NCBI RefSeq assembly: GCF_017377395.1
Contig: NZ_CP061800.1
Coordinates: forward strand, 3,679,633 to 3,743,632
DNA length: 64,000 nt
DNA from: Desulfonema magnum
Lineage (GTDB): Bacteria > Desulfobacterota > Desulfobacteria > Desulfobacterales > 4be13
Reading direction: 5' to 3'
The position numbers and the translations under genes were made by a program. Numbering within the stretch: the stretch's first letter is position 1; the number at the start of each line of letters is the position of its first letter. Below the pieces are notes generated by a model. That model made no database searches. It was given only the letters and a program-made list of their open reading frames with translations, and was not told where the DNA came from. Shown piece by piece: positions 13,418 to 63,512 of the stretch.

Positions 13418-13612
13418 GGGTCGTGTCTCCATATGCATCAGGCTAAGAATGAGGGACGGCTGCCGGACGGGGTTTGCAACCCCGTCCGAAACGTTTGCGG
13501 GCGGCGATCCGGAAAATACTCCGGACGGGGTTGCAAACCCCGTCCGGCAAAATCAGAGTTAATAAAAACAGTAGGTTGTAATCTTAGCCTGATGCGTATG
13601 GGTCGTGTCTCC
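13418..13612. mobile_element. Mini-element with ATATGCATCAGGCTAAG ends and 13-bp direct repeats
   Basis: The body runs from 13431 to 13599 with ends ATATGCATCAGGCTAAG and CTTAGCCTGATGCGTAT. It is flanked by perfect 13-bp direct repeats GGGTCGTGTCTCC (13418-13430 and 13600-13612). The interior carries two GGACGGGGTTTGCAACCCC-type palindromes. A second element with the same ends and its own 13-bp direct repeats lies at 63135-63257. Confidence 0.75.
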
Positions 13613-45290: not shown

Positions 45291-45585
45291 CCGGACTTTT
45301 TGCCGGACTTGCAACTCCTTTTTGCCGGACGGGGTTTGCAACTCCTTTTTGCCGGACGGGGTTTGCAACTCCTTTTTGCCGGACGGGGTTTGCAACCCCT
45401 TTTTGCCGGACGGGGTTTGCAACCCCGTCCGAAATGTTTGCAACCCCGTCCGACAAAGCTTGCAACTCCGTCTGAAATGTTTGCAACCCCGTCCAACAAA
45501 GCTTGCAACTCCGTCTGAAATGTTTTACCGGATCACCAGCAATGAAACGTTTCGGACGGGGTTGCAAACCCCGTCCGGCAAACAA
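45291..45585. repeat. Array of GCCGGACGGGGTTTGCAAC units, then inverted units
   Basis: Five 27-bp direct units (GCCGGACGGGGTTTGCAACTC and variants) are followed by three to four inverted GCAACCCCGTCCGA units and a closing palindrome. Frames across it translate only the repeat. A TTATCAA heptamer tract (45585-45604) leads to the next gene's stop. Confidence 0.85.
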
Positions 45586-62805: not shown

Positions 62806-63121
62806 TAAATTTGGGTGTGTCCCACCTTTTACACATCCGAAAAAATCAGCCACAAATACACAGAGGAACCGCGGAGAGACTTCGTGAGACTTTGTGTCTT
62901 CGCGGCAAAAAAACGGATGCGTCCCGCCTTTTATCCGAAAAAATCAGCCACAAAGACACAAAGACACAAAGGAACCGCAAAAATACGTTCCGAGTCAGGT
63001 CCCGGCTCCGAAACTTTGTCGTATTGAATAATCCGTAACTGTCCGCGTCTGTCCCATTTCCCTCCGGCTTGTCTCAATGTCCTTGCAAGTTCTCTCTGCC
63101 CCCATTCGCCTTTGCCGGACG
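62806..63121. repeat. Tandem GTCCCACCTTTTA / CACAAAGACACAAAG repeats
   Basis: Two related blocks, each starting with TGTCCCACCTTTTAC or CGTCCCGCCTTTTAT, lead into AAAAAATCAGCCACAAAGACAC and AGGAACCGC. The first motif also forms the cheD tail at 34425. No gene is seen. Confidence 0.7.
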
Positions 63122-63270
63122 GGGTTTGCAACCCATATGCATCAGGCTAAGGATTTTTGTGATTCCGGAACGCCTGAAAATAAAGGTTTTGCCTTTCGGC
63201 CGTCGGCCGGTCAGTTTCAATGAAATCAGAATGTTCTGTCCTTAGCCTGATGCGTATGGGTTTGCAACCC
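63122..63270. mobile_element. Mini-element with ATATGCATCAGGCTAAG ends and 13-bp direct repeats, second copy
   Basis: The body is 63135-63257. Perfect 13-bp direct repeats GGGTTTGCAACCC flank it (63122-63134 and 63258-63270). The target is a GGACGGGGTTTGCAACCCC palindrome. The interior differs from the copy at 13431. Confidence 0.78.
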
Positions 63271-63361
63271 GGTAGTCCTGCAAAGGTAGTGATGAATCCC
63301 GTTCAGTCCCCCGATTATCAGGACACTGAATCTCATTCATCACTGCTTGTGCAGGACTACC
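63271..63361. mobile_element. 91-bp mini-element with GGTAGTCCTGCA ends and 8-bp duplication
   Basis: Perfect 12-bp terminal repeats GGTAGTCCTGCA / TGCAGGACTACC are flanked by TGCAACCC on both sides (63263-63270 and 63362-63369). It sits in the same palindrome that received the previous element. A degenerate copy is at 39490-39595. Confidence 0.78.
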
Positions 63362-63369
63362 TGCAACCC

Positions 63370-63512
63370 CGTCCGGAACATTAATTGTTCAGCCGTCGGC
63401 AGACGTTTCAGACGGAGCTGCAAACCCCGTCCGGCAAATAAAATGGAAACTTCTTTAGTAGAATTATTTTACCGCTTACTCGTGGACAGACACCAAATAA
63501 GAAGGAACGATC
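63370..63512. repeat. Remains of GC palindromes before the epimerase gene end
   Basis: The other halves of GGACGGGGTTTGCAACCCCGTCC-type palindromes (63362-63440) lie here, followed by AT-rich DNA without a gene. Confidence 0.65.

Follow-up and report, generated by a model that had tools for sequence, protein, structure and literature searches.

The genome of Desulfonema magnum is a single contig of 8.03 Mb that includes the window, the stretch of 64,000 nucleotides analysed here. A non-coding insertion locus lies at 63113-63436, flanked on one side by a 533-aa ORF without an NCBIfam match and on the other by a methylmalonyl-CoA epimerase gene. Two short mobile elements, here called A and B, have split a host module that is recognisable from its reconstructed empty site and from its copies elsewhere. 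The features of the locus are as follows.

63113..63436, no strand assigned: REP-like two-palindrome module, split by the two insertions
63123..63133, no strand assigned: left target duplication of element A, GGTTTGCAACC, from locus reconstruction
63134..63258, plus strand: element A, a gene-less MITE of 125 bp; inverted repeats CATATGCATCAGGCTAAGGA / TCCTTAGCCTGATGCGTATG, ends of the IS4-family IS231 type
63259..63269, no strand assigned: right target duplication of element A, GGTTTGCAACC, from locus reconstruction
63263..63270, no strand assigned: left target duplication of element B, TGCAACCC, overlapping the right duplication of element A
63271..63361, plus strand: element B, a 91-bp near-palindromic MITE with ends GGTAGTCCTGCA / TGCAGGACTACC and no gene
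63362..63369, no strand assigned: right target duplication of element B, TGCAACCC, from locus reconstruction

Removal of element A with one 11-bp copy of its target, and of element B with one 8-bp copy, restores an empty host module of 89 bp, TGCCGGACGGGGTTTGCAACCCCGTCCGG...CTGCAAACCCCGTCCGGCA, which consists of two inverted palindromes. The observed order is TGCCGGACGGGGTTTGCAACC, element A, GGTTTGCAACCC, element B, TGCAACCCCGTCCGG..., and CTGCAAACCCCGTCCGGCA. One arm of the module is a 23-bp palindrome; the second, inverted palindrome ends at 63436. An earlier note on this DNA had described two different mini-elements in one palindrome, each with direct repeats, and both insertions and their duplications are indeed present. 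The 8-bp repeat of element B was read correctly. For element A the note gave a repeat of 13 bp: the repeat exists, but its length is 11 bp, since the longer count took in the terminal C and G of the element's own inverted repeats and the family-wide value is 10-11 bp. Both targets had been placed at the palindrome centre; element A is exactly centred, but element B lies 2.5 bp off. The proposed succession, A first and B later, is one of two that fit: simulated A-then-B and B-then-A insertions both reproduce the observed sequence exactly, and the order is therefore unreadable from the product.

The host module belongs to a family that is represented dozens of times in the genome. The window module has diverged, with 83-85% identity to the other copies when its own right arm serves as the query, and 84-85% to the common form. 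Many of the copies that we read sit within 159- and 171-bp MITEs of the same type as element A (A-type MITEs), one of which, of 171 bp, lies in the window itself at 13430-13600 with the module inside and an 11-bp duplication, GGTCGTGTCTC. The window module, in contrast, has no A-type ends around it. With two GC-rich palindromes as paired inverted units, an intergenic position, and a high copy number, the module resembles REP and BIME repeats; it differs in that its copies are seen mostly inside A-type MITEs. The Y1 transposase (PF01797), the RAYT type that may mobilise such repeats, has eight matches in the genome. Tandem repetition also occurs: 27-bp repeats of the GGACGGGGTT half-palindrome occupy 45327-45442 of the window, as they do at locus L063, and loci L050 and L059 hold tandem duplications of ~185 and ~230 bp with the REP-like module included. 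The latter suggest that the host module also expands through tandem duplication.

Element A combines the features of a MITE: a length of 125 bp, 20-bp inverted repeats, multiple copies, target duplications, and no transposase gene. Its 125-bp type has ~15 matches in the genome, and its end sequence, CATAYGCATCARGCTWAG, occurs 115 + 117 times at no more than 1 mismatch, where a control has no hits. Copy statistics were drawn from sampled loci of the genome. Among 64 sampled pairs of A-type ends, several length classes share these ends (among them 26 pairs of 171 bp, 20 of 159 bp, and 8 of 125 bp), and exact duplications of 10-11 bp flank 54 of the 64 pairs, with 10 bp in 15 and 11 bp in 39.

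The termini of element A place it close to the IS231 subgroup, whose published ends read CAT-------AA--TAA--- and whose direct repeats measure 10-12 bp (PMC2266710). The A ends, CATAYGCATCARGCTAAG, likewise start with CAT and hold the conserved AA/AG and TAA positions; in CATATGCATCAGGCTAAG one listed IS231 position differs (AG for AA), and relatives with CATAYGCATCAAGCTAAG match in full. The duplications of element A, at 10-11 bp, fall within the range of the subgroup, and its target is GC-flanked and of the GGG(N)5CCC type, as is the target motif of IS231A. There are also differences. Element A has no gene in its 125 bp, and a cognate autonomous copy was not found among the loci examined in the genome. 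MIC231 cassettes, which are non-autonomous derivatives of IS231, carry passenger genes, whereas element A is without any gene. A search of the literature on the host genus returned nothing on elements A or B.

We infer that an IS231-type transposase of the IS4 family mobilises element A in trans. An autonomous element with the exact ends of A was not found among the PF01609 loci examined in the genome, where, in the later groups, a single copy stood for each multicopy type. The genome has a resident IS4-family element in 14 copies (491 aa, ends CATAGGTGTAAAGTTAAGGA); 14 of the first 20 bases of its ends are like those of A, and it is flanked by targets of a similar type. This resident element could be the source of the enzyme for A. 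At L111, three of its left ends, CATAGGTGTAAAGTTAAG, lie within ~1.7 kb in a nested or tandem IS cluster.

A scan of the collection recovered A-type ends in Desulfobacterales, Chlamydiae, Chloroflexi, Methylococcales, and others. The copies in other genomes often have 9-11 bp duplications at GGG...CCC-like sites, and their targets mostly show no palindrome beyond the motif. In L220, a Ktedonobacteraceae contig from a remote phylum, A-type ends enclose a stretch of 1418 bp that includes a transposase gene of the IS4 family (NF033592 / IS4_1, PF01609); the gene is decayed, with premature stops, and a clear duplication is absent around the element. Two further candidates for the parent of A were rejected. 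In L189 (5116-7292, Desulfobacterales bacterium HSG16), the 2177 bp enclosed by A-type ends include an IS110-family transposase gene and are flanked by an 11-12 bp duplication; an A-type MITE has probably been interrupted here by an IS110 element. L248, with 1729 bp, holds a HAD-like ORF judged by eye to be unrelated.

Targets of the sampled A-type pairs mostly follow the consensus GGG.....CCC, starting in G and finishing in C; the commonest are GGGAGAAACCC (10 cases) and then GGTTGCAAACC (5 cases). The window copy obeys this GGG(N)5CCC-like rule exactly, with its 11-bp target centred on the 23-bp palindrome. By family precedent, A would transpose by cut-and-paste into sites close to GGG(N)5CCC, generating the 10-11 bp duplication. 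A-type elements would land at the palindrome centre, as at GGGAGAAACCC and similar sites, because GGGTTTGCAACCC fits this motif.

A different account of the same position is structural. The earlier note had proposed that the palindrome behaves as an insertion hotspot, which could mean that transposases recognise an extruded hairpin, whose tip would then collect elements of unrelated kinds. In keeping with this, A sits at the exact palindrome centre, as do several A-type copies (L043, L065, L134, and L286), and other A-type copies do occupy the same palindrome, as the TTGCAA palindrome in 9 of 54 targets shows. There is also a precedent within the IS4 family: ISRm22 inserts at the palindromy axis of the REPs of Sinorhizobium meliloti, where all nine of its copies lie and a 6-bp repeat is reported (PMC1525189). 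Element A is similarly an IS4-type element that occupies the middle of such a repeat. Nonetheless, ISRm22 is a full IS with every one of these copies in REPs, whereas A is a MITE whose targets are mostly non-REP and whose repeats are 10-11 bp.

DNA folding energies were compared between the 54 reconstructed empty sites and 50 motif-matched GGG(N)5CCC control sites. Mean hairpin energy at A-type insertion sites is below that of loose GG.......CC controls, which favours a structural role; against the GGG(N)5CCC controls, however, the difference (-7.8 versus -6.2 kcal/mol) is not significant (p = 0.08), in a comparison of limited power given the few controls (12 in the window, 50 with other loci added). 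Most of this difference comes from the nine TTGCAA sites; when they are left out, p = 0.25. The GGG(N)5CCC-like sites used by A are mostly not in strong hairpins, and most A targets, those in other genomes included, are not palindromes beyond the motif. Element A is drawn to the module by an ordinary short target sequence, and attraction by a hairpin is not supported.

Element B too has the character of a MITE: 91 bp, terminal inverted repeats, multiple copies, and a constant 8-bp duplication. We examined 42 copies, of which 30 were aligned and are 93-99% identical to the window copy; the 8-bp duplication is exact in 21 of the 42 and has at most 1 mismatch in 27. Among these 27, 21 have targets with no more than 2 G/C of 8. 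The window target, TGCAACCC, is an outlier with five G/C, a composition common to only two others. Short, near-palindromic, gene-less, and multicopy, B is like other bacterial MITEs with 8-bp AT-rich duplications. Exact pairs of its ends 1-3 kb apart, as a parent might have, were not found in the genome; a profile search of the genome for DDE_Tnp_IS240 (PF13610), which would point to the IS6 family, gave no match, and neither did a search of plasmids with B. A B-like element is present from 593 in L329, a 61-kb viral contig (IMG/VR).

B would be mobilised by a different transposase, one whose 8-bp duplications fall chiefly where the DNA is AT-rich, and it probably entered the module, once among ~40 copies, through an occasional off-preference insertion. 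The hotspot reading fails for B, which inserts mainly into AT-rich 8-mers and whose window copy is exceptional and off the palindrome centre; for A it comes down to a sequence motif. A hairpin hotspot common to both elements is therefore not supported. The expectation that copies elsewhere would also lie in palindromes fails for B and for most copies of A, and we regard recognition of an extruded hairpin as improbable.

The A-type family itself offers another route to this locus. Its 159- and 171-bp relatives with the module inside carry their own GGTTTGCAACC target, so that the family might supply its own landing sites, with the window recording one such event in a relic module. The presence of the module in many 171-bp and 159-bp copies is consistent with this, as are nested or adjacent A-type insertions at L044, L064, L065, L134, L293, and L295. 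The window module, however, stands without A-type ends. Furthermore, the genome has 343 GGTTTGCAACC sites (both strands) and 1906 GGG(N)5CCC sites, and the GGTTTGCAACC 11-mer is the target in just a few of the 64 sampled insertions, which argues that the carried site is a generic target. We therefore consider this origin of the window insertion unlikely. The broader scenario, in which A-type MITEs captured a module containing the target that they prefer and multiplied by inserting into one another, forming nested arrays away from genes, is similarly doubtful; if true, the captured module would be a self-provided safe landing site for these elements.

The locus is very probably the product of two unrelated MITEs that inserted independently into one non-coding REP-like module, A by an IS231-type target rule and B off its preference. 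Multicopy families, inverted repeats, duplications, target profiles, and the reconstruction of the empty site form the observed basis of this reading; the type of transposase and mobilisation in trans are the parts that we infer. The stack is not a chance resemblance, given ~15 genome copies of the 125-bp type of A and ~40 of B. It is a tidy case of known transposon behaviour, with new copies of a known kind, rather than a special hairpin hotspot. As such, it is a clear and well-preserved instance of a single repeat entered by two MITE families that differ in their target rules. It also illustrates how a motif in the sequence, GGG(N)5CCC, can mimic a palindrome hotspot. The occurrence of the A-type end sequence in several bacterial phyla indicates that the family is wider than the Desulfonema magnum genome.
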